Shown one piece after another: positions 8,649 to 24,670 of a DNA stretch of 47,364 nt. This stretch comes from Chromatiales bacterium (GTDB taxonomy: Bacteria > Pseudomonadota > Gammaproteobacteria > Thiohalomonadales > Thiohalomonadaceae), in the NCBI GenBank assembly GCA_003251535.1, contig QKFD01000129.1, forward strand, positions 1 to 47,364, written 5' to 3'. The notes under the pieces were generated by a model. That model had not been told where the DNA came from. It searched no databases and saw only the letters and a program-made list of their open reading frames with translations. How positions within the stretch are numbered: the stretch's first letter is position 1; each line of letters starts with the position of its first letter. A program made the position numbers and the translations under genes.

Positions 8649-8709
8649 CCCCTTGGCATTTTCGCCGGAGGTCGGCAGGCTATGGTCTCCGCCCTCGCCC
8701 ACCACCACC

Positions 8710-10251: not shown

Positions 10252-10292
10252 ACGGCCGGGCGCCACACCATCGCCGCGCCCCGCCGTCTCCG

Positions 10293-11285
10293 CTAGTCGG
10301 CCATATCGGAACTGAGGGTGGTGGTGGCGGCAATGGTCACCTCCGCCGACTGCTCGGCCTGGTCCACCTCAAAGTGGGCATCCATCAGTCCAATGAAGCG
10401 CTTCGCCTGCGGTGACAGGAAGCGCCCCTTGCGCAAGACCAGCCCGTAACTGCGTTTGGGGAAGTATTGATCCAGCCGGATGCTCTTCAACCGCTCCTCG
10501 CCGGTGAGGCAGACATCAGTGACGATGGAGATGCCGAGCCCCAGCTCCACATACTTCTTGATCACCTCCCAACCGCCCGCCTCCAGCGCCACCTTGTAGG
10601 TGAGGTTGTGCTGGCGGAACACCAGCTCGACGATGCGCCAGGTGGAGAGGTGACGCGGCGGCAGGATGAGGCCATAGGGGCTCACCTCCTCCAGGGTCAC
10701 CGTGTCACGCTCCGCCAGCGGGTGATCCAGCGGCACGATGAGGGCGGGGTTATAGGTGACGATGGGGCGGTAGACGATATCGTCAGGCACCTCCAGCATC
10801 GAGCCGACGGCAAAATCGACCTCATCCGCCCGCAGCATCGCCAGGCCATCGCGGCCGGTGACGTTGTGCAGCTTCATGCGGATATTGGGGTGGGCCTCGG
10901 TGAACTGCTTCATCGGCCCCGGGAGGATATAGAGGATGGTGGACTCGCCCGCGGCGATATCGAGGTCGCCCGACTCCAGTTTGCCGGTGGTGGCGGCGAA
11001 GGTCTCGTGCAGCTTGTCCATCCCCTCCACCAGCGGGTCCGCCAGGGTGTAGAGGATCTCTCCCTCGGGGGTGAGCTTGATGTTGGGGCCACGCCGCTCA
11101 AACAGGATGATCCCCAGCTCCCGCTCCAACGCCTGGATCTGCAAGGAGACGGAGGGTTGGGAGAGGAACAGTCGTTCGGCGGCGAGGGAGATGCTGCCGG
11201 CCCGGGCGGCGTGGCAGAAGGCGCGTAGCTGCTTGAGTCGGTTCTGCTTGTAATAGAGAGGCGGGGTCGAGGTCACGGGGGGCAT
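10293..11285 (-). CDS. LysR-family regulator, CysB/Cbl type
   Basis: This 330-residue transcription regulator has an N-terminal winged helix-turn-helix (about 13-75, LKQLRAFCHAARAGSISLAA and LSQPSVSLQIQALERELG). A long effector-binding domain of the CysB/Cbl kind follows (about 100-305, with DLDIAAGESTILYILP and GLGISIVTD). It is divergent from rnfB across 152 bases, the usual position for a LysR regulator controlling its neighbour, so control of the rnf/nifJ genes is likely but inferred. The inducer is unknown. CysB homologs sense sulfur metabolites, and that need not apply here. It ends convergently with the hydrolase gene. Confidence 0.9.
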   Translation of the reverse strand: MPPVTSTPPLYYKQNRLKQLRAFCHAARAGSISLAAERLFLSQPSVSLQIQALERELGIILFERRGPNIKLTPEGEILYTLADPLVEGMDKLHETFAATTGKLESGDLDIAAGESTILYILPGPMKQFTEAHPNIRMKLHNVTGRDGLAMLRADEVDFAVGSMLEVPDDIVYRPIVTYNPALIVPLDHPLAERDTVTLEEVSPYGLILPPRHLSTWRIVELVFRQHNLTYKVALEAGGWEVIKKYVELGLGISIVTDVCLTGEERLKSIRLDQYFPKRSYGLVLRKGRFLSPQAKRFIGLMDAHFEVDQAEQSAEVTIAATTTLSSDMAD

Positions 11286-11305
11286 CCCTTGGGAGTATTA
11301 AGTTT

Positions 11306-11324
11306 TTCAATATTAAGCATTGAA
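11306..11324. promoter_or_regulatory. Candidate LysR operator
   Basis: TTCAATATTAAGCATTGAA is a perfect inverted repeat (6-base arms, 7-base spacer) in an AT-rich island 21 bases upstream of the divergent lysR start. LysR regulators bind such interrupted dyads, often containing T-N11-A. It would serve both lysR and rnfB. Confidence 0.5.
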
Positions 11325-11370
11325 ATAATTGCCGTGTCAAATAGTGAGACGAATCATACACTACCGCCCA

Positions 11371-11388
11371 CCCCGCATTTAGGCGGGG
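11371..11388. repeat. Hairpin in the lysR-rnfB intergenic region
   Basis: CCCCGC and GCGGGG are separated by six bases, forming a compact GC-rich hairpin about 50 bases before rnfB. No T-run follows on either strand, so it is not an obvious terminator. It could shape the rnfB leader RNA. Confidence 0.35.
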
Positions 11389-11437
11389 AATCCGGAATAT
11401 TGTTCTCAGCTACTGTCAAGGCACGAGGCAGGAACGA

Positions 11438-12337
11438 ATGGCGGTTTCCCTCACGACGATTGCGATTGCGGGCGGCTTCATGGCTGGCCTTGGTGTGGCG
11501 CTGGCCTCGGTGCTGGCGGTAGCCAACCGCAAGCTCTACGTCTACGAAGATCCCCGTATCGACCAGGTGGAAGAGATGCTGCCCAGCGCCAACTGCGGCG
11601 CCTGCGGCGCGGCCGGCTGTCGCCAGTTTGCAGAAGAGCTGATCGCTGGCAATGTGACCCCTGGCAAGTGCACCGTCAATAGCGAGGGGGGGAATGAGGT
11701 CATCGCCCAGTTCCTGGGGGTCGATGTCGGCGCCGAAGAGAAGCGCGTCGCCCGCCTCGCCTGCCATGGCGGCAACCACGTCGCCTACACCCGCGCCCTC
11801 TATCAGGGGTTGAAGTCGTGCCGCGCCGCCGCCCTGGTGGGGAATGGTGGCAAGGGCTGCACCTGGGGCTGCATCGGCCTCGGTGAGTGCGAGTCGGTGT
11901 GCGATTTCAACGCCATCTCCATGAATAAGTACGGTCTGCCGGTGGTGGATGCCGAGCGCTGCACTGCCTGTGGTGACTGCGTGGAGATCTGCCCGAAGGA
12001 CCTCTTCTCGCTGGAGCCGGTCAGCCACCAGCTCTGGATCGCCTGTAAAAATCAGGATTTGGCCGATGAAGGGGCCGCCGATTGCGAGGTGGTCTGCACC
12101 GCCTGCGGCCGCTGCGCAGCGGATGCGCCGGAGGGGCTCATCACCATGGCCAGTAACCTGGCCGTCATCGACTACACCAAGAACGAATTAGCCTCAAAAG
12201 TCGCCATAGAGCGCTGTCCTACCGGCGCCATAGTTTGGTTCGACAACAAGAAGGGCGTCCTCAAGGGGGCCGACGCCAAACGGGTGACTCGCAAAGAGCC
12301 CCTGCCCCCTCGCATGGAACCACTGCCCCGAGTCTGA
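11438..12337 (+). CDS. rnfB: Rnf electron-transport complex subunit RnfB (long form)
   Basis: This 299-residue ferredoxin-facing subunit of the ion-pumping Rnf complex has a membrane anchor at about 5-28. It is followed by the Fe-S domain C53/C56/C61/C78 (NCGACGAAGC) and ferredoxin-type motifs C141/C145/C151/C155 and C175/C178/C181/C185. A last region carries C220, C223, C226 and a distant C260. In that last pair only one cluster can form: the fourth Cys of the first motif is Ala230, and the first three cysteines expected around residues 249-256 are missing. It is longer than the roughly 190-residue RnfB of enterics and resembles the multi-cluster form of anaerobes. It is the first gene of the rnf/nifJ region, and a terminator-like hairpin follows. 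Confidence 0.93.
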   Translation: MAVSLTTIAIAGGFMAGLGVALASVLAVANRKLYVYEDPRIDQVEEMLPSANCGACGAAGCRQFAEELIAGNVTPGKCTVNSEGGNEVIAQFLGVDVGAEEKRVARLACHGGNHVAYTRALYQGLKSCRAAALVGNGGKGCTWGCIGLGECESVCDFNAISMNKYGLPVVDAERCTACGDCVEICPKDLFSLEPVSHQLWIACKNQDLADEGAADCEVVCTACGRCAADAPEGLITMASNLAVIDYTKNELASKVAIERCPTGAIVWFDNKKGVLKGADAKRVTRKEPLPPRMEPLPRV

Positions 12338-12368
12338 CCGCCGCGCATGAGCGCAACGAATAACGTCC

Positions 12369-12395
12369 GGGGCCGCCGGGCGGGCGGCCCCTTTT
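12369..12395 (+). terminator. Terminator or attenuator between rnfB and nifJ
   Basis: A perfect 9-bp stem GGGGCCGCC / GGCGGCCCC (12369-12377 with 12383-12391) with a 5-base loop is followed by TTTT. The stem is very stable but the T-run is short, so partial read-through into nifJ is plausible. It would let rnfB and nifJ be expressed at different levels. Confidence 0.7.
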
Positions 12396-12427
12396 GACCC
12401 GAAATCCCAGGAACGCAGGACACCGAC

Positions 12428-15400
12428 ATGCTCAGAAACAAAGATAAGGCGAAAGAGTTCAAGTACCCCGGCACCCGCCAGGCGATGGACGGCAATACCG
12501 CCGTTATCATGTGCGAGCGCGAGGCTTCTGATGCCGCGGGCGCCTACCCCATCACCCCCTCGACCCAGATGGGCGAGTTTTGGGCCGAAGAGGCGGCAAA
12601 GGGTCACGTCAACATCTCCGACCGACCGCTCATCTTCATCGAACCAGAGTCAGAGCACGCCGCTGCGGCGGTCACCGCCGGCCTGGCCATGACCGGCCTG
12701 CGCGCCACCAACTTCTCCTCTGCCCAGGGCGTCGCGTTCATGCACGAGTCGCTCTATGCGGCGGTGGGCAAGCGCCTCACCTATGTGCTCAACATCGGCT
12801 GCCGCGCCATCACCAAGGCGAGCCTCAACGTCCACTGCGCCCACGACGACTTCCACTCCATCGACGACACCGGCTTCTTCCAGTTCTTTGCCAAGAGCGC
12901 GCAGGAGGCGGCGGACCTCAACCTGATCGCCCACAAGGTGGCGGAGCTGGCGCTCACCCCCGGCGTGATGGCGATGGATGGCTTCCTCACCACCCACCTC
13001 ATCGAATCGCTCAACGTCCCTGAGCGCAAGCTGGTGGAGGAGTTCCTCGGCAGCTCCGACGACCTCATCGAGACCCCGACCCCGGCCCAGCGGGTCATCT
13101 ATGGCGCCACCCGTCGCCGCATCCCGGAGGTGTGGGATGTGGATAAGCCGGTCTCCTCCGGCTCGGTGCAGAACCAAGATGCCTACATGCAGGCGGTGGC
13201 GGCCCAGCGCCCCTACTTCTTTGAGCACATCCCGGAGCTGACCGACCGGGCGATGCAGGAGTTCTATGGGCTGACCGGCCGCGCCTATGGCCGCGTCAAC
13301 AGCTACCGCATCGAAGATGCTGACTACGTCATCATTGGCATGGGCTCCATGCTCTCCACCGCCGAGGCGGTGGCCGACTACATGCGCGAGCAGCGCGCGA
13401 TCAAGGTCGGGGTGATCAACCTCACCATGTTCCGCCCCTTCCCTGGCGATCAGCTCGGCCAGCTGCTGAAGGGTAAGAAGGGGGTGGTGGTGCTGGAGCG
13501 TACCGACCAGCCGCTGGCGGAGGACCTGCCGCTGATGCGCGAGGTGCGCGCCACTGTCTCCAAGTGCATTGAGAACGGTCTGCTCGGCGGTCACGATGGC
13601 CACGTCGGCTACGCCGCCTTCAAATCCAATGAGATCCCGCAGCTCTACTCCGGCTGCTACGGCCTCGGCTCCCGCGATCTCCAGCCCGAAGCGCTGGTGG
13701 GCGCGGTGGAGAATATGCTGCCCGATGGCGGCAAGCGCCGCTTCTTCTACCTCTCCGTAGACTTCCTGCATGACGCCCCTGACTCACCGAAGCAGGAGAT
13801 CTACATGCAGGAGCTGCTGGAGTCCTATCCGCGCATCCGTGACCTGGCGGTGAAGGGGAGCGACAACCCCAACTTGCTGCCCAAGGGCTCCATCACGGTG
13901 CGGATGCACTCCGTCGGTGGCTGGGGTGCCGTCACCACCGGCAAGAACCTGGCAATGACCCTGTTCGAGCTGCTCGGCTACGACATCAAGGCCAACCCCA
14001 AATACGGTTCGGAGAAGAAGGGCCAGCCCACCACCTACTATCTCGCCGCCGCGCCGGAGAAGATCCGCGTCAACTGCGAGTTTAAGCATGTGGATGTGGT
14101 GCTCTCGCCCGATCCCAATGTCTTCGATCACAGCAACGCCCTGGCCGGTCTGCGTAAGGGCGGCGTGCTGGTGATCCAGAGCAACCTCGCCTCACCCGAG
14201 GAGGTGTGGCGCTCGTTCCCGGTGTCGGCCCAGCAGTACATCGTCGATAACGAGATCAAGCTGTTCTATATCGACGCCTTCAAGGTGGCACGTGAAGAGG
14301 CCTCCAATCCTGAGCTCCAGTACCGGATGCAGGGTATCGCCTTCCAGGGCTCCTTCTTCGCCGCCTCCGGCATCATGGAGCAGGCCAACCTCAACGAGAC
14401 CTCGCTCTTCAATGCCATCAAGGCGCAGCTCCAGGCCAAATTCGGATCCAAGGGCACCCGCGTGGTGGAGGACAACCTGCGGGTGGTACGGCGCGGCTTC
14501 GAGGAGCTGATCGCCGTCCCGGTACAGCCGGTGACCCAGCTCACCGCCGCCGGCCTGCGGCGCACGACGGTCCTGCCGGTGATGCTGAAATTGAAACCCG
14601 CTGCCAGCGAGAAGGTGAGCGATATCCACCGCTTCTGGGAGCAGACCGGCAACTTCTATCTGGCCGGTAAGGGCAACGACAACATCGTCGATCCCTTCAT
14701 CGGCATGTCGCTCATCCCCGCCGCCACCGGCGTCTTCCGCGACATGACCCAGGTCCGCTTCGAGCACCCCACCTGGATCCCGGAGAACTGCACCGCCTGC
14801 GGCGACTGCTACACCCAGTGCCCCGATAGCGCCATCCCCGGTCTGGTCACCCCGGTGGCCGATCTGTTCGAGACCACTATCCGTCGCATCGAGTCCCAGG
14901 GCCAGACCACCCGCCAGCTGCGCCGTGCGGCACGCACGGTGGAGAAGAAGCTGCGCGCCCTGGTTGAGCCCCAGGCCGAGGCCGCCAAGATCGGCGAGCT
15001 GCTGCGCCAGGCGATCAACGACACCATCGCCGAATCTGAACTGGCGCCGGAGGACAAGAATCAGCTCGCCACCGAGTTTGACTGGTTCGAGCAGTCCCTG
15101 GGTGAGTTCAAGTTCGCCATCACCAAGCCCTACTACTCCATCTTGGAGAAGCGGGCCAAGGGCAGTGGCGGCCTCTTCTCCATCACCATCAACCCCTACA
15201 CCTGTAAGGGCTGCATGGAGTGCGTCGATGTCTGTGATGACAACGCCCTGATAGTGGAGAGGCAGACCCCCGATTCAGTTGAGCAGATGCGCCGCGACTG
15301 GCAGTTCTGGCTCGACCTGCCCACCACCCCGCAGAACTACATCCGCATCGATGACCTCGATGAGCGCATCGGCGCCCTGGAGACGCTGCTGCTGGATAAG

Positions 15401-17368
15401 GTCAACTACAACTCCATGGTCTGCGGCGATGGCGCCTGCCTCGGCTGTGGCGAGAAGACCTCCATCCACCTCTTTACCGCCACCGTCTCGGCGCTGATGC
15501 AGCCGCGGGTAAAGCGCCATATGGAGAAGGTGGACAACCTGATCCAGGGGCTGGAGAAGCATATCCGTCTCAAGCTGGCCGAGAGCATGGATCTCTCCGA
15601 CACCCAGGCCATCGCCCAGGTAGTGGATGCCCATCAGGAGGTCGATCTCACCCTCGCCCGCCTCTCCGGTGCCCTCGACCAGCACAACGCCAGCACCGTC
15701 GATGCCGATTGGCTGAAATGGGCCTCCGGCCTGCTGGCCCAGCTCAAACACCTGAAGTGGCAGTACACCCAGGGGGTGAGCAACAACGGTCGCTCCCACA
15801 TGGGGGTGGTCAACTCCACCGGTTGTACCTCGGTGTGGGCCTCCACCTTCCCCTACAGCCCCTATCCGTTCCCCTGGACCACCCACCTGTTCCAGGACGC
15901 CCCCTCCATGGCGATGGGGCTGTTCGAGGGTCATATGGCCAAGATGGCCGATGGCTTCCGCGCGGTGCGCATGGCGGAGCTGGAGATCGCCGGCAACTAC
16001 AACCCGGAGAAGCACAAAGAGTTCTTCACCCACTTCGCCTGGAAGGACTTCAGCGAAGAGGAGTGGCTACTCTGTCCGCCGGTGGTGGCCATGGGGGGTG
16101 ACGGTGCCATGTATGACATCGGCTTCCAGAACCTCTCCCGCGCCATGATGTCGGGGATGCCGATCAAGGTGGTGGTGGTGGACACGCAGGTCTACTCCAA
16201 CACCGGCGGCCAGAACTGCACCTCCGGCTACATCGGCCAGGTGGCAGATATGGCCCCCTACGCCAAGCGGCAGAAGGGCAAGAACGAGATCCGCAAGGAG
16301 ATCTCCCTCATCGGCCTGGCCCACCGCAGCGCCTACGTGATGCAGGGCTCCGTCTCCCACGCCAACCACCTCATTGAGGGGTATATCGAGGGGCTCAACA
16401 GCCGGCGGCCGGCGCTCTTCAACATCTATGCGGTCTGCCCGCCGGAACACGGCGTGGGCGATGAGACCTCCTTTGCCCAGTCCAAGATGGCGGTGGAGTC
16501 GCGCGCCTATCCGCTGTTCCGCTTCAACCCGGATCGCGGTATCACCTTGGCGGAGTGCTCGGATATCGAGGGCAACCCGGCCATTGAAGGTGATTGGCCC
16601 ATCTACACCCTCACCTATCAGGATGAGGCGGGCAAAGAGCAGAAGCTGGAGGTGCCGTTCACCTTCGCCGACTTCGCCCTCACTGAAGGTCGCTTCCGCA
16701 AGCACTTCAAGAAGGCGCCGAAGGAGACCTGGAACGAGCAGATGGTGCCGGTCCACGAGTTCATCGAGCTGGAGTCGGATGACCGTGATGGGCTCTTCCC
16801 CTACATCTGGGCAGTGGATGCCAAGCAGCGCCTCGGGCGGGTGCTGGTCTCCCAGGAGATCATCGAATCCACCTTGGAGCGGCGTGCCTTCTGGCGCCAG
16901 CTGAAGGGTCTGGTGGGTGCCGACCAAGAGGTGGTGGATGTCGATAGCGTGGTCAATCAGGCACGGGTGGAGATGGCGCAGAAGCTCACCGCCAGCCTGC
17001 TCTCACTAGCGGTTGGCAACGCCAGCAACTTGACCAATGTGCTGAATCTGCCGAACGATGGCGGCCATGGTGTCGCCAGCGTCGGTGCCAACGGCGGCGG
17101 CAACGGTGCAGCGGCCGACTATGAGGCGGTGTGGGTCGATACGCCCGAGTGCACCGCCTGTGACGAGTGCATCAACATCGCCCCCAAGGCGTTTAAGTAC
17201 AACGACCAGAAGCAGGCCGTCGTGCTGGATCCCAAAGGGGCGAGCTTCAAGGACCTGGTGAAGGCCGCGGAGAAGTGCACCGCGTCCTGCATCCATCCGG
17301 GGACTCCCTGGAACATGGGTGAGCCCGGTATTGACAAGCTCATTAAGCGTGCGGAGAAGTTTCACTAA
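12428..17368 (+). CDS. nifJ: Pyruvate:ferredoxin (flavodoxin) oxidoreductase, extended form with C-terminal ferredoxin
   Basis: This 1646-residue TPP enzyme interconverts pyruvate + CoA and acetyl-CoA + CO2 with ferredoxin. All NifJ/PFOR regions are seen. The N-terminal pyruvate-binding domain has AYPITPSTQMGEFW and FIEPESEHAA. Further in are a gamma domain (SVGGWGAVTTGKNLA), two [4Fe-4S] motifs (C788/791/794/798 and C926/929/932/936), the proximal-cluster cysteines C999 or C1004/C1007 and C1133, and the TPP motif GGDGAMYDIGF with VYSNTGGQ. Usual NifJ is about 1170-1230 residues. The excess comes from extra helical residues between the two ferredoxin motifs (128 between C798 and C926), about 100 between C1007 and C1133, and a Gly-rich linker leading to a single-cluster ferredoxin domain (C1575/1578/1581 and C1617 or C1621). 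It is placed between rnfB and rnfC. The reaction direction is not fixed by sequence. Confidence 0.93.
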   Translation: MLRNKDKAKEFKYPGTRQAMDGNTAVIMCEREASDAAGAYPITPSTQMGEFWAEEAAKGHVNISDRPLIFIEPESEHAAAAVTAGLAMTGLRATNFSSAQGVAFMHESLYAAVGKRLTYVLNIGCRAITKASLNVHCAHDDFHSIDDTGFFQFFAKSAQEAADLNLIAHKVAELALTPGVMAMDGFLTTHLIESLNVPERKLVEEFLGSSDDLIETPTPAQRVIYGATRRRIPEVWDVDKPVSSGSVQNQDAYMQAVAAQRPYFFEHIPELTDRAMQEFYGLTGRAYGRVNSYRIEDADYVIIGMGSMLSTAEAVADYMREQRAIKVGVINLTMFRPFPGDQLGQLLKGKKGVVVLERTDQPLAEDLPLMREVRATVSKCIENGLLGGHDGHVGYAAFKSNEIPQLYSGCYGLGSRDLQPEALVGAVENMLPDGGKRRFFYLSVDFLHDAPDSPKQEIYMQELLESYPRIRDLAVKGSDNPNLLPKGSITVRMHSVGGWGAVTTGKNLAMTLFELLGYDIKANPKYGSEKKGQPTTYYLAAAPEKIRVNCEFKHVDVVLSPDPNVFDHSNALAGLRKGGVLVIQSNLASPEEVWRSFPVSAQQYIVDNEIKLFYIDAFKVAREEASNPELQYRMQGIAFQGSFFAASGIMEQANLNETSLFNAIKAQLQAKFGSKGTRVVEDNLRVVRRGFEELIAVPVQPVTQLTAAGLRRTTVLPVMLKLKPAASEKVSDIHRFWEQTGNFYLAGKGNDNIVDPFIGMSLIPAATGVFRDMTQVRFEHPTWIPENCTACGDCYTQCPDSAIPGLVTPVADLFETTIRRIESQGQTTRQLRRAARTVEKKLRALVEPQAEAAKIGELLRQAINDTIAESELAPEDKNQLATEFDWFEQSLGEFKFAITKPYYSILEKRAKGSGGLFSITINPYTCKGCMECVDVCDDNALIVERQTPDSVEQMRRDWQFWLDLPTTPQNYIRIDDLDERIGALETLLLDKVNYNSMVCGDGACLGCGEKTSIHLFTATVSALMQPRVKRHMEKVDNLIQGLEKHIRLKLAESMDLSDTQAIAQVVDAHQEVDLTLARLSGALDQHNASTVDADWLKWASGLLAQLKHLKWQYTQGVSNNGRSHMGVVNSTGCTSVWASTFPYSPYPFPWTTHLFQDAPSMAMGLFEGHMAKMADGFRAVRMAELEIAGNYNPEKHKEFFTHFAWKDFSEEEWLLCPPVVAMGGDGAMYDIGFQNLSRAMMSGMPIKVVVVDTQVYSNTGGQNCTSGYIGQVADMAPYAKRQKGKNEIRKEISLIGLAHRSAYVMQGSVSHANHLIEGYIEGLNSRRPALFNIYAVCPPEHGVGDETSFAQSKMAVESRAYPLFRFNPDRGITLAECSDIEGNPAIEGDWPIYTLTYQDEAGKEQKLEVPFTFADFALTEGRFRKHFKKAPKETWNEQMVPVHEFIELESDDRDGLFPYIWAVDAKQRLGRVLVSQEIIESTLERRAFWRQLKGLVGADQEVVDVDSVVNQARVEMAQKLTASLLSLAVGNASNLTNVLNLPNDGGHGVASVGANGGGNGAAADYEAVWVDTPECTACDECINIAPKAFKYNDQKQAVVLDPKGASFKDLVKAAEKCTASCIHPGTPWNMGEPGIDKLIKRAEKFH

Positions 17369-17430
17369 GGGGTGTCTTGCGAAACCGGGGACCCACTCTA
17401 CCCCAACGGAGTGACGTCCCTTTGTTCGGG

Positions 17431-17503
17431 CGTAGGAGCGGAGAGACGTATTCGCGTTTCTGGGCATGTGCCGCGTATACGGCCGCTCCTACGGTTTTTT
17501 TTT
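17431..17503 (+). terminator. Long hairpin with T-run after nifJ
   Basis: CGTAGGAGCGG (17431-17441) pairs with CCGCTCCTACG (17483-17493). Inside it a second stem forms between CGTATTCGCG and CGCGTATACG with one mismatch. A run of nine T's follows. It has the form of a strong terminator between nifJ and rnfC, although GTAGGAGCGG arms also recall REP-type repeats, so a mobile repeat acting as terminator is possible. No clear promoter is visible in the 47 bases left before rnfC. Confidence 0.7.
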
Positions 17504-17550
17504 CCGAACCGCAGACCTATCCATTGGCTCCCGCAACGAGGGCTTGAACC

Positions 17551-18891
17551 ATGGGCCTATTGTCAATTTTTGGCATAAAGAGTTTCGCTCACGGCGTCCA
17601 TCCGCCGGAGCATAAGGACGATACGGCCAGCCGGCCCATCCGCCGGTTGCCGTTCGCCTCTAGATTTGTCATCCCCCTCTCCCAGCACTTCGGTGCCCCA
17701 GCGGTGCCGCTGGTGCATGTCGGTCAGGAGGTGGTGCGGGGTGAACCCATCGCCACCGCGGATGGCTTCGTCTCGGTGCCCCAGCACGCCCCTATCACCG
17801 GCGTGGTGGAGGCGATCCAGCTGATGCCGAGCGCCCGCGGCCCGAAGGTCCCCTCCATTGTGCTGCGCGCCTATGACGCCGCCAGCCAACACGTCCTCTA
17901 CGGCGCGCCGTGGGACGTGGAGCAGCTCTCGCCAGAGCAGCTGATCCAGGGGATCCAGGAGACCGGCATGGTCGGCCTCGGCGGCGCCGGCTTCCCCACC
18001 CACGTCAAACTCCAGGTGCCGGCGGACTGGCCCATCGACACCCTGGTGATCAACGGCTGCGAGTGTGAGCCCTACCTCACCGCCGACCACCGCATCATGT
18101 TGGAGCACACCGATCAGCTGCTGGCCGGCACCCGTCTGGCGATGCGGGCGGTGGGCGCCAAGCGGGCGGTGATCGGGGTTGAGGACAACAAGCTCGATGC
18201 GGTGGAGGCGATCAAACGCCGTATCCGGGTCGATGACAGCATCACGGTGGAGGCGGTCAAGACCAAATACCCGCAGGGCTCGGAGAAGCTGCTGATCAAG
18301 GCGCTGCTGGGCCGTGAGGTCCCCTCCGGCGGCTTCCCATTCCAGGTGGGGGTGGTGGTCAATAACGTCGGCACCCTGGCGGAGCTAGGCACCCTGCTGC
18401 CCAAGCGCCAGGGTCTGGTGGAGCGGGTGGTGACGGTGGCCGGCCCCGGGGTGGCCAAACCGGGCAACTACCTCATCCCCATCGGCACACCGCTGCGCTA
18501 TATCCTCGACCACGTGGGCTACAGCGGCGACGCCCGCCGCATCATCCTGGGCGGGCCGATGATGGGACAGACCGTGGCCTCGCTGGACGTGCCGATCACC
18601 AAGCCCGTCTCGGGGGTGATCGTGCTGCCGGAGCGGGCCAAGAGCGGCGACTCGGAGCGGATCTACCCCTGTATCAAGTGCGGCGCCTGCCTTGACGCCT
18701 GCCCGATGCACCTCAATCCGTCACAGCTCGGCCAGCTGGCCGGCAAGCGGCGTTATGAGGAGATGGCGGCCCACTTCCACCTCAACGACTGCTTCGAGTG
18801 CGGCTGCTGCTCTTATGTCTGCCCCAGCAATATCCCGCTGGTGCAGTACTTCCGCATTGCGAAGTCCATCAACCGCGAGCGTATCTCCTGA
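17551..18891 (+). CDS. rnfC: Rnf electron-transport complex subunit RnfC
   Basis: This 446-residue peripheral subunit binds NADH and FMN and passes electrons through two [4Fe-4S] clusters. The N-terminal RnfC_N/biotinyl-like region (about 20-105) precedes a complex-I 51-kDa-like domain (GLGGAGFPTHVKL near 140; NGCECEPYLTADH). The ferredoxin motifs are CIKCGACLDACPMHLNP near 375 and CFECGCCSYVCPSNIP near 412. The protein is shorter than E. coli RsxC, which carries a long Ala-rich tail. Its stop overlaps the rnfD start by one base (TGATG). Confidence 0.95.
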   Translation: MGLLSIFGIKSFAHGVHPPEHKDDTASRPIRRLPFASRFVIPLSQHFGAPAVPLVHVGQEVVRGEPIATADGFVSVPQHAPITGVVEAIQLMPSARGPKVPSIVLRAYDAASQHVLYGAPWDVEQLSPEQLIQGIQETGMVGLGGAGFPTHVKLQVPADWPIDTLVINGCECEPYLTADHRIMLEHTDQLLAGTRLAMRAVGAKRAVIGVEDNKLDAVEAIKRRIRVDDSITVEAVKTKYPQGSEKLLIKALLGREVPSGGFPFQVGVVVNNVGTLAELGTLLPKRQGLVERVVTVAGPGVAKPGNYLIPIGTPLRYILDHVGYSGDARRIILGGPMMGQTVASLDVPITKPVSGVIVLPERAKSGDSERIYPCIKCGACLDACPMHLNPSQLGQLAGKRRYEEMAAHFHLNDCFECGCCSYVCPSNIPLVQYFRIAKSINRERIS

Positions 18892-19940
18892 TGCCCCCCT
18901 CCATCTCTCCCGTGGAGCTGCGCACCTCGCCCCATGTGCGCACCACCCAGAGCGTTGAGCTCATCATGCGCAACGTGGTCTATGCGCTGCTGCCCATCAG
19001 CACCTGGGCCATCTGGCAGTTTGGCCTCTCGGCGCTGGCCCTCATCCTGACGGTCACCGCCACCTGCGTGGCCACCGAGCGCTTCTTCAACTGGATGGCG
19101 GATCGCCCCAGCACCCTCTCCGACTGGAGCGCCACCATCACCGGCCTGCTGTTGGCCCTCACCCTCCCGCCCGGCTTCCCGCTGTGGATGGCGGTGGTGG
19201 CCGGTTTTGTCGGCATCGCCCTCGGTAAGGCGCTGTTTGGCGGCCTCGGCTTCAATGTCTTCAATCCGGCCCTGGTGGGGCGCGCCTTTGTCCAGGCCGC
19301 CTTCCCGGTCTCCATCACCAGCTGGACCCCCGCCTTCGCCCCGGGCCGCTTCACCGAGTTCATCCCCACCACCTTCACCGCCCCCTTCACTATCCCGCCG
19401 GATCTCGGCGCCTGGGTGAAGGCGGCCGGTGTGGATGGCTTCACCGGCGCCACCCCGCTCTCGCTGTGGAAATTTGATGGGGTGGTCACCTCCAGCAGCG
19501 ATCTGTTCACCGGCATGAGCGCCGGCTCCGCGGGGGAGACCTCGGCCCTACTCATCCTGCTCTGCGGCGCCTATTTGGCGGTGCGCAAGATGATGGATTG
19601 GCGCATCCCGGCCGCCGTGCTCGGGGGTGCCTTTGCCACCGCCCTCGCCTTCTGGCTTTGGGGCGGCGAGCACTTCCCGCAGCCGCTGTTTGTGCTCTTC
19701 TCCGGCGGTCTGATGCTAGGGGCGGTGTTCATGGCGAGCGATATGGTCGCCTCGCCGGTGACCCCGCTGGGGATCTGGATCTATGGCCTCTTCATCGGCT
19801 TCATCACCGTCATCATCCGCTACTTTGGCGGCCTGCCGGAGGGGGTGATGTATGCCATCCTTCTAGGGAACGCGGTGTCGCCGCTCATCGAACAGGTGAC
19901 CCAACCGCGCATCTATGGTGCCAAGGAGGCGAAGAAGTGA
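18891..19940 (+). CDS. rnfD: Rnf complex membrane subunit RnfD
   Basis: This 349-residue integral membrane subunit carries covalently bound FMN. Several hydrophobic helices flank a periplasmic loop with GFTGATPLSLWK, where T188 of the SGAT-like motif is the predicted flavin attachment site. GLGFNVFNPALVGRAFVQAAFP is also typical (the NPAxxGR region). The start at 18891 overlaps the rnfC stop (TGATG), so translation is coupled. A frame open from 18798 lies inside rnfC and was not used. Confidence 0.95.
   Translation: MPPSISPVELRTSPHVRTTQSVELIMRNVVYALLPISTWAIWQFGLSALALILTVTATCVATERFFNWMADRPSTLSDWSATITGLLLALTLPPGFPLWMAVVAGFVGIALGKALFGGLGFNVFNPALVGRAFVQAAFPVSITSWTPAFAPGRFTEFIPTTFTAPFTIPPDLGAWVKAAGVDGFTGATPLSLWKFDGVVTSSSDLFTGMSAGSAGETSALLILLCGAYLAVRKMMDWRIPAAVLGGAFATALAFWLWGGEHFPQPLFVLFSGGLMLGAVFMASDMVASPVTPLGIWIYGLFIGFITVIIRYFGGLPEGVMYAILLGNAVSPLIEQVTQPRIYGAKEAKK
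19923..19929 (+). promoter_or_regulatory. Ribosome binding site of rnfG (decides GTG start)
   Basis: AAGGAGG, seven bases before the GTG at 19937, is a full Shine-Dalgarno match located inside the end of rnfD. It supports the GTGA overlap start of rnfG over any internal start. Confidence 0.8.
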
Positions 19941-20626
19941 GCGCGCCCCACACCTCAACGCTGTCCGCCACGCCGCAGACCCCCTCCTTCCGGCTCATCG
20001 CCGTGTTGGGGACCGTGGCCATGCTCTCCGGGCTGCTCATCGTCTTGGTCTATCAGTGGACCCTGCCCACCATCACCGAACAGAAGCGCCTGGCGCTGGA
20101 GCGGGCGGTGCAGGCGGTGATCCCCGGTGCCAGTAGCATCGAGACCTTGGTACTGGAGGGGGGGCAACTCCACCCCGATAGCGCCAACGTCAATGGCCTG
20201 CACGTCTATCTCGGCTACGACCAGGCCGGCACCCTCCAGGGGATCGCCGCCGAAGGCTCCGGGCAGGGCTACGCCGACCTGGTGAAGATCCTCTATGGCT
20301 ATGACCCCGCCTGTCAGTGCATCAGCGGCTTCAAGGTGGTGGCCAGCCGAGAGACGCCGGGGTTTGGCGACAAGCTGGATCGGGATCCCAAGTTCCTTGC
20401 CAACTTCCAGGCATTGGATGTGCAACTCGATGCCGAGCAGCAGGCGCTGGCCAACGAGGTGGTGACGGTCAAACACGGCACCAAGAGCAAGCCGTGGCAG
20501 ATCGACGCCATCTCCGGTGCCACCGTCTCCTCGCGTGCCGTCGGCCGGGCCATCAACGACAGCGCCAGCAAGCTGCTGCCGGTGCTCACCCCCCGCCTCT
20601 CTGAATTTGCCAAGCGGAGCCCATGA
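19937..20626 (+). CDS. rnfG: Rnf complex subunit RnfG
   Basis: This 229-residue periplasm-facing subunit has one N-terminal membrane helix (about 17-38, LIAVLGTVAMLSGLLIVLVY) and an FMN-binding domain. The predicted flavinylation threonine is T196 in DAISGATVSSRAV, and ASRETPGFGDKL is a typical RnfG/NqrC motif. A GTG start at 19937 overlaps the rnfD stop by four bases and has a perfect upstream Shine-Dalgarno. The stop overlaps the rnfE start (ATGATG). Confidence 0.94.
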   Translation: MSAPHTSTLSATPQTPSFRLIAVLGTVAMLSGLLIVLVYQWTLPTITEQKRLALERAVQAVIPGASSIETLVLEGGQLHPDSANVNGLHVYLGYDQAGTLQGIAAEGSGQGYADLVKILYGYDPACQCISGFKVVASRETPGFGDKLDRDPKFLANFQALDVQLDAEQQALANEVVTVKHGTKSKPWQIDAISGATVSSRAVGRAINDSASKLLPVLTPRLSEFAKRSP

Positions 20627-21276
20627 TGGACAGCAAACAGACGCCCATCACCATGGACACCTTCCTCGCCCAGGTGTGGCGGGATAACCCGGTCTTTGTC
20701 ATGGCCCTGGGGATGTGTCCGGTTCTTGCGGTCACCAGCTCCGCCACCAATGGCCTGGCCATGGGGATCGCCAGTACCTTTGTACTCATCGGCTCCAATC
20801 TGCTGGTGTCGATGCTGCGCAAGCTGATCCCCAAGCAGGTGCGCATCGCCACCTACATCGTCATCATCGCCACCTTTGTCACCATGGTGGACTACATCCT
20901 CCAGGCGATGGCGCCGGCGATCTATGCCGCCCTGGGGGCCTTCATCCAGCTCATTGTGGTCAACTGCATCATCCTTGGCCGGGCCGAGGCCTACGCCTCG
21001 AAAAACGGCGTGCTCGCCTCGGTCGTCAACGGCGCCGGTACCGGCGCCGGCTTTACCCTGGCGCTACTGTTGTTGGGCGGCGTGCGGGAGATCTTGGGGG
21101 CCGGTACCCTGTTTGGTATCGATCTATTCGGCCCCCATTTCCAGCCGTGGCTGGTGATGATCCTGCCACCCGGCGGCTTCTTTGCCCTCGGCGCCTGGCT
21201 GCTACTGTTTTCCTGGCTGAAGCAGCGCAAGACGCGGCGCGCAGAACTCAAGGGGGAACCGCTCCATGCAGGGTGA
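20623..21276 (+). CDS. rnfE: Rnf complex membrane subunit RnfE
   Basis: This 217-residue subunit has about six membrane helices and is homologous to NqrD. Conserved cysteines in ALGMCPVLAVTSSA and IVVNCIILGRAEAYAS match those that, with RnfA, hold an intramembrane [2Fe-2S] cluster in Rnf/Nqr complexes. It overlaps rnfG by four bases and rnfA by 11 bases, consistent with tight translational coupling. Confidence 0.95.
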   Translation: MMDSKQTPITMDTFLAQVWRDNPVFVMALGMCPVLAVTSSATNGLAMGIASTFVLIGSNLLVSMLRKLIPKQVRIATYIVIIATFVTMVDYILQAMAPAIYAALGAFIQLIVVNCIILGRAEAYASKNGVLASVVNGAGTGAGFTLALLLLGGVREILGAGTLFGIDLFGPHFQPWLVMILPPGGFFALGAWLLLFSWLKQRKTRRAELKGEPLHAG

Positions 21277-21850
21277 ATCACTCTCTTTCATCTTTCTCAA
21301 CGCGGCGATCATCAACAACTTTGTGCTCGCCATGTTCCTTGGGATCTGTCCGTTCCTGGGGGTCTCCGCCAAGTTGAAGACCGCTGGCTCCATGGGGGCG
21401 GCCACGCTGCTGGTGATGCTCATCAGCTCTGCCTGCGCCTATGGTCTCAACTATTTATTGGTGGAGTTTGAGCTGGAGTTTCTGCGCCTCATCAGCTACA
21501 TCGCCGTTATCGCCTCATCGGTACAGCTGGTGGAGATGGTGATGAAGCGGTTCAGTCCGGCGCTGTTCCGCGCCTTGGGCATCTTTCTGCCGCTCATCAC
21601 CACCAACTGCGCCATCCTCGGCGTGGCACTGTTCCAGACCACCCATGAGTTCAACCTGGTGCAGTCGCTGGTCTACAGCTTCGGCGCCGGGGTGGGCTTT
21701 ACCATCGCCCTGGTGTTGATGGCCGGTCTGCGGGAGAAGTTGGAGCTATCCGATGTCCCTACCGTCAGCTCCGGGCTGGTGATGAGCCTGATGTTGGCTG
21801 GCCTCCTCTCCCTCTCGTTTATGGGCTTTGCCGGCCTGGGAGGACACTGA
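21266..21850 (+). CDS. rnfA: Rnf complex membrane subunit RnfA
   Basis: This 194-residue subunit has about six membrane helices and is homologous to NqrE. It carries NNFVLAMFLGICPFLGVS and ITTNCAILGVAL, whose cysteines pair with those of RnfE to hold the shared cluster across the membrane. The gene lies last among the standard rnf genes, whereas in many genomes rnfA is first. The stop overlaps the start of a small Cys-rich gene (TGATG). Confidence 0.95.
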   Translation: MQGESLSFIFLNAAIINNFVLAMFLGICPFLGVSAKLKTAGSMGAATLLVMLISSACAYGLNYLLVEFELEFLRLISYIAVIASSVQLVEMVMKRFSPALFRALGIFLPLITTNCAILGVALFQTTHEFNLVQSLVYSFGAGVGFTIALVLMAGLREKLELSDVPTVSSGLVMSLMLAGLLSLSFMGFAGLGGH

Positions 21851-22038
21851 TGATCGCCAAATTTCTCATCGCTATGGGGGCCATCCTGCTGATGTTGGTG
21901 GGCTGGATTGGGGTGCAGCAGGCGGCACGCCACTATGCGCTCCGCCACCCCGAATTTGGACCGCCCCGCGAGGAGGGGGGCGGTTGTGGTGGCAGCTGCT
22001 CTTGTAAGGGCGGGGGCAGCTGTAAGACCAAAGGCTGA
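21850..22038 (+). CDS. Small Cys-rich single-pass membrane peptide of the rnf operon
   Basis: This 62-residue peptide has one N-terminal membrane helix (about 4-22, KFLIAMGAILLMLVGWIGV), a short charged stretch and a Gly/Cys-rich tail with C46, C50, C52 and C58. It is translationally coupled to rnfA through a TGATG overlap, so it is a real member of the operon. The layout recalls NqrM (DUF539), a small membrane protein needed to insert iron into Na+-NQR. A role in metal delivery or assembly of the RnfA/RnfE cluster is plausible. I cannot assign the family with certainty. Confidence 0.75.
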   Translation: MIAKFLIAMGAILLMLVGWIGVQQAARHYALRHPEFGPPREEGGGCGGSCSCKGGGSCKTKG

Positions 22039-22046
22039 AATATAGA

Positions 22047-22087
22047 GGCCGCACCAACAGGGTGACGGCCAGACATTTTGGTTTTTT
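22047..22087 (+). terminator. Probable terminator of the rnf operon
   Basis: GGCCGCACC pairs with GGTG(A)CGGCC (one bulged A) across a 5-base loop, followed a few bases later by TTTTGGTTTTTT. The T-run is displaced from the stem, so termination may be imperfect. The remaining bases to 22173 hold the leader of ppsA. Confidence 0.5.
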
Positions 22088-22173
22088 CTTGAACGCAAGG
22101 AGGCCCGCCGGGTGACGCCGCCGGGCTGGGTGTAAACGCAAACTCTGGTAACCGATACCAAGGGGGATTCAAC

Positions 22174-24570
22174 GTGGGTGAATACATCGTCTGGTTCGAC
22201 GCGCTAGGCATGGAAGATGTGCCGCGCGTCGGCGGCAAAAACGCCTCGCTCGGCGAGATGATCAGTGGCCTCTCCGGGGTCGGCGTGCGGGTCCCCGGCG
22301 GGTTTGCCACCACCGCCTACGCCTTCCGTGAGTTCCTGCGCCACGACCGCCTCGAAGAGCGTATCAATACCCTGCTCGCTACCCTCGACGTGGAGGATGT
22401 CAAGGCGCTGGCCGAAGCGGGCCGCACCATCCGCCAGTGGATAGTGGATACGCCGTTCCCCGAGCCGCTGCTGGATGCGGTAGCCAACGCCTTCCGCAAG
22501 ATGGAAGAGGGGGCCGGCGGCGAACTGTCAGTGGCAGTGCGCTCCTCCGCCACCGCCGAGGACCTGCCGGATGCCTCCTTTGCCGGCCAGCAGGAGACCT
22601 TCCTCAACGTCTGCGGGCTCGATAACGTCATCGACGCCATCAAGCACGTCTTCGCCTCGCTCTACAACGATCGCGCCATCTCCTACCGCGTCCACAAGGG
22701 GTTCGACCACGCCAATGTCGCCCTCTCCGCCGGTATCCAGCGCATGGTGCGCTCCGACATCGGCGCCGCCGGGGTGATGTTCACCCTCGATACCGAATCG
22801 GGCTTCCGGGAGGTGGTGTTCATCACCGGCTCCTACGGTCTGGGTGAGACCGTGGTGCAGGGTGCAGTCAACCCGGATGAGTTCTACGTCCACAAACCCA
22901 CCCTTGCCGCCGGCCGGCCGGCAGTGCTCTCCCGCAAGCGCGGTAGCAAGGCGATGAAGATGGTCTACACCGCCGAGAAGAGCGCCGGCAAGAGCACCCG
23001 CACCATCGATGTTGAGGGTGACGATCGGATGCGCTTCTGCCTCACCGATGAGCAGGTGATGGAGCTGGCGCGCCAGGCGGTGATCATCGAGAAGCACTAC
23101 GGCCGACCGATGGATATCGAGTGGGCCCTGGATGGCAACGACGGCCAGGTCTACATCGTTCAGGCGCGGCCGGAGACGGTGAAGAGCCGCGACAGCGCCA
23201 ACGCCATCGAGCGCTACAAACTGAAGCGCCCCGGCGAGGTGCTCACTGCGGGCCGTGCCATCGGCCAGAAGATCGGCGCCGGCGTCACCCGCCTGGTGAA
23301 GGATATCTCCGAGATGGGTAACGTCCAGCCCGGCGACGTGCTGGTCACCGACATGACCGATCCCGACTGGGAGCCGGTGATGAAGCGTGCTGCCGCCATC
23401 GTCACCAACCGGGGTGGCCGCACCTGCCACGCCGCCATCATCGCCCGCGAGCTGGGGATCCCGGCCGTGGTCGGCTGTGGCAACGCCTCTGAGGTGTTGA
23501 AGGAGGGGCAGGAGGTGACCGTCTCCTGCGCCGAGGGCGACACCGGCTTTGTCTACAAAGGGCTGCTGCCGTTCGATGTGGAGCGCTCCACCACCACCTC
23601 GATGCCGCAGCTGCCGGTGAAGGTGATGATGAATGTCGGCAACCCGGGGCGCGCCTTTGACTTCGCCATGATCCCCAATGCCGGGGTCGGTCTGGCCCGC
23701 CTGGAGTTCATCATCAACACCACCATCGGCATCCACCCGAAGGCGCTGTTTGAGGTGGAGGCACAGAGCCCAGAGGTGCAGAAGGAGATCCAGGAGCGGG
23801 CGGCTGGCTACGCCGGGCCGATCGACTTCTATGTCGAGAAGCTGACCGAGGGGATCGCCACCCTGGCCGCCGCCTTCCACCCCAATCCGGTGATTGTGCG
23901 GATGTCCGACTTCAAGTCGAACGAGTACGCCAATCTCATCGCCGGTGATCGCTACGAGCCGCACGAAGAGAATCCGATGATCGGTTTCCGCGGCGCCCTG
24001 CGCTACATCTCCGAGAGCTTCCGCCGCTGCTTTGAGCTGGAGGTGAAGGCGATCCGCAAGGTGCGCGAGGAGATGGGGCTGACCAACGTGCAGGTGATGA
24101 TCCCCTTCGTGCGGACCCTGGATCAGGCCAAGCAGGTCTCTGAGCTACTGGTCGCCAACGGCCTGGAGCGGGGTAAGAGTGGTCTCAAGCTCATCATGAT
24201 GTGCGAGATCCCCTCCAACGCCGTGCTGGCCGATGAGTTCCTGGAGTACTTCGACGGCTTCTCCATCGGCTCCAACGACATGACCCAGCTCACCCTGGGA
24301 CTGGACCGCGACTCAGGCGTGGTGGCCACGCTGTTTGACGAGCGCGATCCGGCGGTCAAGAAGATGCTCTCCATGGCCATCACCGCCTGCAAGGCGCAGG
24401 GCAAGTATGTCGGCATCTGCGGCCAGGGCCCCTCCGACTACCCGGACCTGGCGAAGTGGCTATTCGAGCAGGGGATCTCCAGCATCTCCCTCAACCCCGA
24501 TACGGTGGTCGAGACCTGGCTGCACCTGGCGGAAGATAACGCCAGTGACGGCTCGGCGGCCGCCGGCTGA
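22174..24570 (+). CDS. ppsA: Phosphoenolpyruvate synthase
   Basis: This 798-residue enzyme converts pyruvate + ATP + water to PEP, AMP and phosphate, the entry to gluconeogenesis from pyruvate. The N-terminal ATP-binding domain (about 1-340, [23 protein letters not shown]) is followed by the swivelling phosphohistidine domain with the catalytic His in [21 protein letters not shown] near residue 418. A C-terminal PEP/pyruvate barrel has [17 protein letters not shown] and the catalytic Cys in [13 protein letters not shown] near 750. The start is GTG with an AGGGGG site eight bases upstream. Its regulator ppsR lies directly downstream. It follows the rnf/nifJ genes, which places pyruvate synthesis and use side by side. 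Confidence 0.97.
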
Positions 24571-24601
24571 TCCCCACCACCCGGGTACAAGGAAGTGCCC
24601 A

Positions 24602-24640: not shown

Positions 24641-24670
24641 TCCCGCCCTGCTCCCCATTGAGGTCCGCCT

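Follow-up and report, generated by a model that had tools for sequence, protein, structure and literature searches.

Whence organisms that are not strict anaerobes draw electrons low enough in potential for carboxylations of the PFOR (pyruvate:ferredoxin oxidoreductase) type is an open question in the field. Both PFOR and the Rnf ion pump are reversible. When run in reverse, Rnf supplies ferredoxin for nitrogenase, as summarized in a review for Azotobacter vinelandii Rnf1 and nif-linked Rnf (PMC12174285). The genes rnfABCDGE are also found within rTCA gene clusters of tubeworm symbionts, and it has been suggested that they could make the cycle more efficient (Rubin-Blum 2019; PMC6315080); the words 'pyruvate' and 'PFOR' are absent from the main text of that report. 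No PFOR inside rnf was described in the open-licence literature searched, nor in the available text of PMC6593406, PMC4853749, PMC12174285, PMC11636981, PMC7414866 and PMC6315080; an earlier description may exist.

The window analysed here is a stretch of 47,364 nucleotides (contig QKFD01000129.1, assembly GCA_003251535.1) from a Chromatiales bacterium, in which a long nifJ lies between rnfB and rnfC.

Gene arrangement and Rnf subunits

The genes of the row are all on the plus strand, in the order rnfB-nifJ-rnfC-D-G-E-A-Cys-rich peptide, followed by PEP synthase and its regulator (Table 1). The original prediction had given this order as far as the peptide, on one strand, and every gene was found in its place. 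The overlaps of 1-11 bases that it described were also borne out (C/D 1, D/G 4, G/E 4, E/A 11, A/Cys 1), using starts of rnfD and rnfG read by eye from the sequence, as the mechanical ORFs start too early. The spacing is 90 bp from rnfB to nifJ and 182 bp from nifJ to rnfC, the latter gap holding a weak terminator-like site at 17481-17496. PEP synthase, its regulator and the divergent LysR gene had been absent from the prediction; the top NCBIfam match of the LysR gene is a CysB family, below cut-off. A nifU-type gene is also present in the window (1668-2561).

Table 1. Features of the rnf-nifJ locus and its flanks, in window coordinates
Feature	Position	Strand	Basis or remark
LysR-type regulator (CysB-like)	10293..11285	-	divergent from rnfB; Pfam LysR_substrate and HTH_1
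rnfB, 299 aa, ferredoxin-facing subunit	11438..12337	+	FeS and Fer4 domains; TIGR01944 over cut-off
long nifJ, 1646 aa	12428..17368	+	POR_N, PFOR_II, POR, TPP_enzyme_C, Fer4_13; matches 6cin, 1b0p
NifJ insert 1, residues 813-911	14864..15160	+	comparison with 6cin; structure model
NifJ insert 2, residues 1024-1119	15497..15784	+	comparison with 6cin; structure model
NifJ C-terminal [4Fe-4S] ferredoxin domain, residues 1567-1646	17126..17365	+	Fer4_13, Foldseek
rnfC	17551..18891	+	TIGR01945 over cut-off
rnfD	18891..19940	+	ATG 18891, 1-base overlap with rnfC; TIGR01946 over cut-off
rnfG	19937..20626	+	GTG 19937; FMN_bind; TIGR01947 95.4 bits vs cut-off 102
rnfE	20623..21276	+	TIGR01948 over cut-off
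rnfA	21266..21850	+	TIGR01943 over cut-off
Cys-rich peptide, 62 aa	21850..22038	+	relatives after rnfA; alignment
PEP synthase	22174..24570	+	PPDK_N, PEP-utilizers, PEP-utilizers_C
kinase-pyrophosphorylase (PEP synthase regulator type)	24671..25492	+	PF03618

The Rnf set comprises six subunits, A, B, C, D, E and G; A to E are over their TIGR cut-offs, and RnfG is under its own yet has its FMN_bind domain. Judged by its sequence, RnfB is nearest to the Rnf of anaerobes, the closest solved chains being 9eri_B (E 7e-52) and 7zc6_B (7e-49), which we take to be from Acetobacterium woodii and Clostridium tetanomorphum. Chain 8ahx_B, presumably of the Azotobacter vinelandii Rnf1 type, is far behind (2e-11).

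The Cys-rich peptide has a single hydrophobic stretch, an HPEFGP motif and a Cys-rich tail (alignment of 23), and a relative follows rnfA in 34 of 56 testable loci among the best 80 of 582 relatives. It reached no Pfam family over cut-off, and three members compared with Pfam, with hits accepted to E 1, gave no NqrM (DUF539). The peptide presumably resembles NqrM, and it is possible that it acts as an NqrM-like maturation factor for Rnf.

The long NifJ protein

The predicted NifJ is related to PFOR: all catalytic and Fe-S residues checked are intact, two inserts have been added, and a ferredoxin closes the chain at its C-terminus. Its PFOR domain set is complete, with POR_N, core II, gamma domain, two ferredoxin clusters and ThDP domain. 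In an alignment of 80 rows (79 loci and the window; L115, whose match is in two pieces, was left out), T43, R126, GDG 1224-1226, N1258 and twelve cysteines are invariant in 80/80, covering substrate and cofactor sites and three [4Fe-4S] clusters. These columns come from the alignments, and we take the roles of the residues to be those of DaPFOR. The fused ferredoxin that had been predicted is present (Fer4_13 at residues 1570-1623), with C1575, C1578 and C1581 in all 80 rows and C1617 in 79; over the 22 key residues of NifJ there is one gap. Because its TIGR02176 score (425.8 bits) is under the narrow equivalog cut-off of 911.35, the protein was filed as a PFOR variant.

Insert 1 adds about 82 residues beyond 6cin, sits between the two ferredoxin-type clusters and is helical in the predicted model (pLDDT 84-93 in blocks of ten). 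Insert 2 adds about 113 residues beyond 6cin across 971-1123, precedes the ThDP domain and is modelled as long helices (pLDDT 69-93 in blocks of ten). Conservation is 0.57 and 0.61 in the inserts versus 0.77-0.87 in the catalytic and cluster parts. The fold was compared for residues 690-1646 of the model, which match 6cin_B with Z 22.6 and rmsd 4.7 over 471 residues; the ferredoxin domain has a Foldseek match to 1fxr_A (TMt 0.81, E 0.046).

Conservation of the locus

Loci were compared for the best 80 of 582 listed relatives, all named and with at least 60% identity in the best segment, so the synteny counts apply to the nearest relatives and not to all. These 80 span eight phyla by title. Among them, rnfB is at most 400 bp upstream of the long nifJ in 75 of 78 testable loci, and in 71 of the 72 loci that could be tested for rnfC this gene starts at most 1 kb downstream. 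Short contigs such as L066 and L108 allow the comparison on one side at most. No rnfB match was found in the 10 kb upstream of nifJ in L128 and L136 or in the 488 bp upstream in L107, and no rnfC in the 454 bp downstream in L117; each of the four has an rnf gene at the opposite side of nifJ. The order varies in G249, where rnfA is followed by rnfB. In G036 there is no rnf match in the 18 kb after nifJ, and its RnfC opens another contig. One genome search covered 50 of these 80. Because nifJ has the same position in distant bacteria of several phyla, the idea of a merely local arrangement was rejected.

The flanking genes are kept less regularly among these best 80 of 582: the divergent LysR gene in 19/57 testable loci, a ferredoxin-NADP reductase-like gene after rnfA in 24/47, PEP synthase adjoining the module in 8/47 and the kinase-pyrophosphorylase within 5 kb of rnfA in 6/47. 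By record title, cultured strains with the module include Allochromatium, Thiocapsa, Marichromatium, Ectothiorhodospira, Rhodocyclus, Sulfurisoma and Sedimenticola, and the module is therefore open to laboratory testing.

Of 274 genomes of the class, 21 match the window's NifJ at E 1e-100, and 15 were counted as carrying long NifJ (at least 54% identity to the window's). Those not counted are G034, which has the sister module described below (module 2), G227, G110, G208 and G084, which have two-subunit relatives, as well as G196, whose match is 36% identical and on a contig of 4 kb. The 15 carriers are the same 15 genomes whose best RnfC is at least 52% identical to the window's, while some RnfC is present at E 1e-50 in 158/274. 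Hence the possibility that the long NifJ is equally common without rnf fails for the group of at least 54% identity, where 15/15 have the window-type RnfC. The pairing stands for that group and does not extend to every long NifJ-like protein: around L250, a paralog of 35% identity, 19.9 kb of sequence contain no rnf match. The two-subunit relatives L149-L152 (39-42%), whose matches skip the NifJ region of about 700-925 and everything past about 1430, likewise lack an rnf match in the stretches examined.

In a tree of 98 RnfC rows, the module RnfC proteins form one clade (78 rows, SH-aLRT 99). The 14 'other' RnfC rows were chosen, not random, and consist of two further own copies, eleven best-scoring loci and one Calditrichales copy, which falls beside the module-2 clade. 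Across the 71 rows having NifJ, RnfB and RnfC all present, distances correlate with r 0.83 for NifJ-RnfC and 0.79 for NifJ-RnfB (0/999 permutations), values that include shared ancestry.

A sister module

The sister module was found in 13 loci, in which 2-oxoglutarate:ferredoxin oxidoreductase genes and rnf share one gene row. korAB is present in 12/13, the remaining contig being too short, and the NifJ of this module (NifJ2) adjoins rnfB in 13/13. T43, GDG and the third-cluster cysteines are absent from NifJ2 in 13/13, and R126 is still R in 7/13. The eight Fe-S cysteines of two ferredoxin-type clusters are retained in 12/13; the NifJ2 row of L248 is without cluster cysteines, and at that locus rnfC is present with no rnfD-A match in the following 8 kb. 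NifJ2 looks catalytically dead, with its clusters kept as an electron adaptor would keep them. The module is accompanied by sucCD in four loci. The nearest solved relative of its KorA is 6n2n (E 3e-84), which is also among the nearest for KorB. A second PFOR-derived protein of 824 aa gave a poor model (pLDDT 59) with weak ThDP-like fold matches (Z about 11-14). The sister module amounts to a natural experiment, in which an enzyme seemingly without catalysis retains its electron wire within an operon of this type.

The original prediction of a pyruvate-Rnf module is strongly supported by the gene order across phyla, the matching RnfC clade, the agreeing distances and the sister module.

Proposed function and alternatives

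The locus probably encodes a dedicated PFOR-Rnf module, a single electron-transfer unit most likely used for pyruvate synthesis from acetyl-CoA and CO2. The direct observations behind this reading are the gene content, conserved order, intact residues, private RnfC clade and a sister-module NifJ without catalytic motifs. That a pump and a CO2-handling enzyme form one machine is suggested by the same nifJ position in distant bacteria and by the sister set with its 2-oxoglutarate enzyme. From here we infer physical contact between NifJ and Rnf, with RnfB as the most likely contact point, as well as the substrate and direction. The inserts and fused ferredoxin of NifJ may serve docking on the Rnf pump or direct electron exchange with it, and the Rnf genes of the module would be private partners of NifJ, not housekeeping or nitrogenase-linked Rnf. 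The ion gradient would push NADH electrons uphill via Rnf to the Fe-S clusters lined up in NifJ, NifJ would join acetyl-CoA and CO2 to pyruvate, and the PEP synthase in the window would pull pyruvate towards sugars. Read in this way, the genome would name a dedicated supplier of low-potential electrons for PFOR-type carboxylation. Points that weigh against the reading are the lower conservation of the inserts, the deviating loci of G249 and G036, the distant paralog L250, and, for the sister module, the L248 locus and the R126 retained in 7/13 NifJ2 rows.

A broader reading has about an even chance of being correct: such modules would form a class of oxoacid synthases bound to the membrane, with the PFOR body as an Rnf subunit, an adaptor wiring 2-oxoacid:ferredoxin oxidoreductases to the ion pump. 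In module 1 the adaptor would be the pyruvate synthase itself. In module 2 an adaptor without catalysis and the second PFOR-derived half would link Rnf to 2-oxoglutarate synthase, joined in some operons by succinyl-CoA synthetase. If so, an ion gradient would directly drive both ferredoxin-dependent carboxylations of reductive carbon metabolism.

Alternatively, the coupled module may run oxidatively, converting pyruvate to acetyl-CoA and passing electrons via Rnf to NAD+ while ions are pumped, and so stand in for pyruvate dehydrogenase (PDH) with a saving of energy. This use is rather unlikely. The reversibility of both enzymes favours it, as do the nearness of RnfB to 9eri and 7zc6 and the ferredoxin-NADP reductase-like neighbour, which against the few PEP synthase neighbours in the same best 80 of 582 means that the neighbours point to no general synthesis role. 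The module-2 genomes G102 and G219 have no match of 2-oxoglutarate dehydrogenase E1 size, so that KorAB could be the oxidative enzyme there. Against it, a PDH E1-type gene is present in 15/15 carriers and 19/19 genomes examined, so that pyruvate is apparently oxidised by a different path, and the window's PEP synthase works in the opposite direction. aceE is over cut-off in 8/19 genomes, with a partial aceE in G102, and the ten genomes without aceE have an E1alpha of PdhA size, identified by length and family only, which could belong to another 2-oxoacid dehydrogenase. With these E1alpha genes, the argument that PDH is missing and NifJ must be oxidative was dropped. The reductive direction is favoured by the PEP synthase of the window and of 8/47 loci, by a strong isocitrate lyase match in only 2/15 carriers and by a RuBisCO-family match in 12/15. 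Reductive pyruvate synthesis remains the more likely use of the module.

NifJ and Rnf might also be mere co-regulated neighbours that share a soluble ferredoxin and never touch. Operons often group the partners of one pathway, and the gaps on both sides of nifJ with the weak terminator-like site would suit such an arrangement. However, nifJ lies between rnfB and rnfC, not beside the operon, in eight phyla by title (best 80 of 582), and its ferredoxin is fused to it. The sister-module NifJ, with its catalytic motifs gone and its clusters intact, would have little reason to be retained if only free ferredoxin were involved. The neighbours-only arrangement is quite improbable.

The original prediction had also offered nitrogenase as the recipient of low-potential electrons. 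In its favour, nifD, nifK and a gene of the vnfK type occur in the window's genome, and nifH is over cut-off in 5/15 carriers versus 20/259 other genomes. However, 10/15 carriers are without nifH over cut-off, and three of the other five (G125, G184, G249) have a separate rnfC, about 40% identical to the window's, 15-32 kb from nifH; nitrogenase supply was set aside as the main role after this co-occurrence test. The window's Rnf is not of the nif-specific kind, nif-linked and present only with nitrogenase. The sister module is associated with korAB, and at four loci with sucCD as well; feeding of nitrogenase is very improbable.

Comparison with known systems

In the rTCA clusters of tubeworm symbionts, the available text names four-subunit KorABCD with Hdr-Flx and no enzyme inside rnf (PMC6315080). 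Azotobacter vinelandii Rnf1 differs in that the window's RnfB is far from 8ahx, and the nifH-family matches of the window's genome are on contigs other than that of the module. From nif-linked Rnf the module is set apart by the rnfC near nifH in G125, G184 and G249, which is only 40% identical to the window's. The nearest solved relative of module-2 KorA, 6n2n, is the 2-oxoglutarate:ferredoxin oxidoreductase of Magnetococcus marinus; unlike that system, module-2 KorAB is encoded alongside rnf genes, a NifJ whose catalytic motifs are missing and another protein derived from PFOR.

The single-chain PFORs of Moorella thermoacetica (6cin) and Desulfovibrio africanus (1b0p) share with the long NifJ their domains, the catalytic T/R/GDG/N and three [4Fe-4S] sites. 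They have 1171-1232 residues, whereas the long NifJ has about 1650, with two extra helical inserts and a C-terminal Ferredoxin I-like domain. Unlike them, it has one or more rnf genes beside it in 79/80 loci (best 80 of 582), L108 being too short. The Rnf of anaerobes (9eri, 7zc6) has all six subunits in common with the window and is closest in RnfB. Unlike it, the module in the window holds a PFOR gene between rnfB and rnfC, and among the rows of the tree the window-type RnfC is a clade of its own.

Organization and conservation of module 1

Pfam and NCBIfam scans revealed a row of genes in one direction, coding for RnfB, a NifJ-type protein of 1646 amino acids, RnfC, RnfD, RnfG, RnfE, RnfA and a 62-amino-acid Cys-rich peptide (module 1). 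The gene overlaps described in the original prediction are correct with the rnfD and rnfG starts tabulated below. A divergent LysR gene lies 5' of the row. Immediately 3' are the gene for PEP synthase and one for a kinase-pyrophosphorylase, of the kind that regulates this enzyme. No sigma-70-like sites were detected in 11250-26500, against an average of 3.1 in shuffled sequences. A weak terminator-like hairpin between nifJ and rnfC is a possible attenuation point. The Cys-rich peptide contains a single hydrophobic stretch and an HPEFGP motif, matches no Pfam family over the cut-off and is conserved 3' of rnfA in 34 of 56 loci; it may correspond to NqrM on the Rnf side.

Coordinates of features in the window and in fetched loci (L handles, each with its own coordinates; G handles are class-level genomes, G000 being that of the window)
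Sequence	Position	Strand	Feature
Window	467-2561	-	Aminotransferase class V gene adjoining full-length nifU-type gene
Window	17481-17496		Hairpin with T run
Window	18891		rnfD start (ATG)
Window	19937		rnfG start (GTG)
Window	21850-22038		Cys-rich peptide
L036 (G249)	992-12347		Rearranged module 1
L046	17138-18982		Sister module korA match, in three overlapping pieces
L047	4265-18905		Sister module; further loci L046, L175-L178, L216, L244-L248, L251
L087	19629-20492		Ferredoxin-NADP reductase-like gene after rnfA; less than 3 kb of room, outside the 24 of 47 count
L144 (G000:C85)	207538-208354		Alternative (V-type) nitrogenase genes near contig end; nifH-type gene reads split over two frames
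L249	4505-9031		Long NifJ-like paralog
L250	7994-12688		Long NifJ-like paralog

A single scan of the species-level genome collection, using an alignment of 11 long NifJ sequences as query, identified at least 582 relatives, of which the best 80 were kept. The recurrence of nifJ inside rnf clusters was borne out in these 80 by mechanical gene calls: rnfB lies within 400 bp upstream of nifJ in 75 of 78 testable loci, and 71 of 72 have rnfC no more than 1 kb downstream. The order C-D-G-E-A is kept in 55 of 56 loci reaching rnfA, rnfG being undetected in the sole exception (L098). By record title, the 80 belong to the Pseudomonadota, Acidobacteriota, Verrucomicrobiota, Kiritimatiellota, Hydrogenedentota, Calditrichota, Bacteroidota and Myxococcota, plus one 'PVC group', although single titles may be wrong because most are MAGs. 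The closest relatives suggest that the organism of the window is a gammaproteobacterium.

The long NifJ was also found in 15 of 274 class-level genomes (carriers). Among testable carriers, counted by hand and with the window included, 13 of 14 have rnfB upstream and 13 of 14 have rnfC downstream. In G249, rnfB follows rnfA instead of preceding nifJ. In G036, no rnf match was found in the 18 kb after nifJ, and RnfC opens another contig. Distant long NifJ-like paralogs (35%) are not uniformly adjacent to rnf: that in L249, with intact catalytic residues and no C-terminal ferredoxin cysteines, lies after an rnf end, and the 19.9 kb examined for that in L250 contain no rnf match.

The long NifJ and its Rnf partner

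The long NifJ can be aligned to the PFORs 6cin and 1b0p. Compared with 6cin, it is longer by about 82 residues behind the first ferredoxin motif and by about 113 ahead of the ThDP domain, and it has an additional C-terminal ferredoxin domain. Across 80 rows (the window plus 79 named loci from the best relatives), the invariant positions comprise T43 and R126, which are substrate residues, N1258, the GDG motif, all twelve cysteines that make up three clusters and three cysteines of the fourth cluster; C1617 of that cluster is gapped in one row. An AlphaFold model of residues 690-1646 (39 sequences, mean pLDDT 76) matched 6cin_B with Z 22.6 and rmsd 4.7 over 471 residues, and the two inserts are helical in it. 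Since it scores 425.8 bits with TIGR02176 (cut-off 911), the long NifJ is a branch outside that model.

RnfC was detected at E 1e-50 or better in 158 of the 274 class-level genomes. The 15 genomes with an RnfC at least 52% identical to that of the window are the same 15 that carry the long NifJ; the remaining RnfC, among the matches listed, are at most 49% identical. In a tree, the 78 RnfC of the module group in a single clade (SH-aLRT 99), to which the two further RnfC of the window's genome do not belong. The two additional rnf clusters of that genome (L142 and L143, contigs C45 and C76) have RnfC 42% and 39% identical respectively. NifJ, RnfC and RnfB distances correlate (r 0.79-0.83, 71 rows, 0 of 999 permutations; shared ancestry not removed), and the three trees agree exactly on one seven-row group, in which Calditrichota, Myxococcota and proteobacterial rows are mixed. 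Because of this agreement, the genes seem to move together as a unit.

A sister module with korAB

A second arrangement, first found in two class-level genomes, has the order korA-korB-824-aa protein-rnfB-NifJ2-sucC-sucD-rnfC-D-G-E-A. Thirteen loci have it, from six class-level genomes and from seven of the 50 named genomes that were searched, and they fall in Calditrichota, Bacteroidota and the class of the window; G218 and G167 contain both modules. NifJ2 adjoins rnfB in all 13, korAB is present in 12 (the L216 contig is too short), and sucCD separates NifJ2 from rnfC in four of 12 testable loci (L046, L047, L177, L178). The full rnfC-D-G-E-A set follows NifJ2 in nine; contig ends cut L175, L216 and L245, and L248 has rnfC with no rnfD-A matches in the next 8 kb.

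KorA is nearest to 6n2n, a 2-oxoglutarate:ferredoxin oxidoreductase, and KorB, which retains the ThDP domain, to 5b46 and 6n2n. From these features and sucCD, we infer that the substrate is probably 2-oxoglutarate; the sister module would then wire a 2-oxoglutarate-type enzyme into rnf. In 13 of 13 rows, NifJ2 has lost the GDG motif, T43 and every one of the four third-cluster cysteines; N1258 survives in a single row, the poorly aligned L248, and R126 remains in seven. All eight cysteines of two ferredoxin clusters are retained in 12 rows, L248 being the exception. The 824-aa protein looks like the final third of NifJ with motifs missing, and its C-terminus is a ferredoxin; the four cysteines of this ferredoxin are seen in 11 of 12 rows, the L046 row being truncated. 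We read NifJ2 and the 824-aa protein, from these sequence patterns, as a dead PFOR that may be retained as an electron wire between KorAB and Rnf. This reading is the strongest hint that the NifJ body of module 1 may contact Rnf too.

Proposed role of module 1

Pyruvate metabolism was checked in 19 genomes, the 15 carriers plus G034, G098, G102 and G219. As aceE is over the cut-off in eight and partial in G102, and a PdhA-size E1alpha is found in the other ten, pyruvate oxidation is seemingly covered otherwise. Isocitrate lyase family matches are over the cut-off in nine, strong only in G167 and G265 (the seven weaker at 38-62 bits), and RuBisCO-family matches occur in 16. PEP synthase is next downstream in 8 of 47 testable named loci. 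A gene with NAD_binding_1 and FAD_binding_6 domains, which from its motifs we take to be ferredoxin-NADP reductase-like, occurs soon after rnfA in 24 of 47 (3 kb of room); the window has PEP synthase in its place.

Weighed together with the nitrogenase evidence, these counts favour a role of module 1 in pyruvate synthesis from acetyl-CoA, derived, for example, from a storage polymer or acetate; operation in the oxidative direction is a serious rival. Of the two uses originally proposed, reductive pyruvate synthesis is thus preferred and nitrogenase supply is not favoured as the main role: nifH is over the cut-off in five of 15 carriers versus 20 of 259 other genomes, an enrichment that kinship may explain, and nifD, nifK and a vnfK-type gene are present in the window's genome, but ten carriers have no nifH over the cut-off, and a different rnfC lies about 15.5, 16 and 32 kb from nifH in G125, G184 and G249 respectively. 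No contig is shared by rnfC and nifH in G000 and G240.

Comparison with known systems

No description of PFOR inside rnf was found in the literature searched, and PFOR and oxoglutarate do not occur in the main text of a 2025 RNF review (PMC12174285). According to excerpts of the published accounts, PFOR is highly expressed and Rnf present in Kentron symbionts, where acetyl-CoA carboxylation via PFOR was proposed during storage-polymer use, PFOR and Rnf being left unconnected in that excerpt (PMC6593406). Thiomargarita is listed with a pyruvate enzyme encoded by one gene and with two copies of rnf (PMC4853749), and tubeworm symbionts are reported to carry rnfABCDGE inside rTCA clusters (PMC6315080). 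A 'PFOR-like' gene and korAB were reported in another study to drop together when sulfide is limiting (PMC11636981); this would fit the sister module, presuming its presence there.
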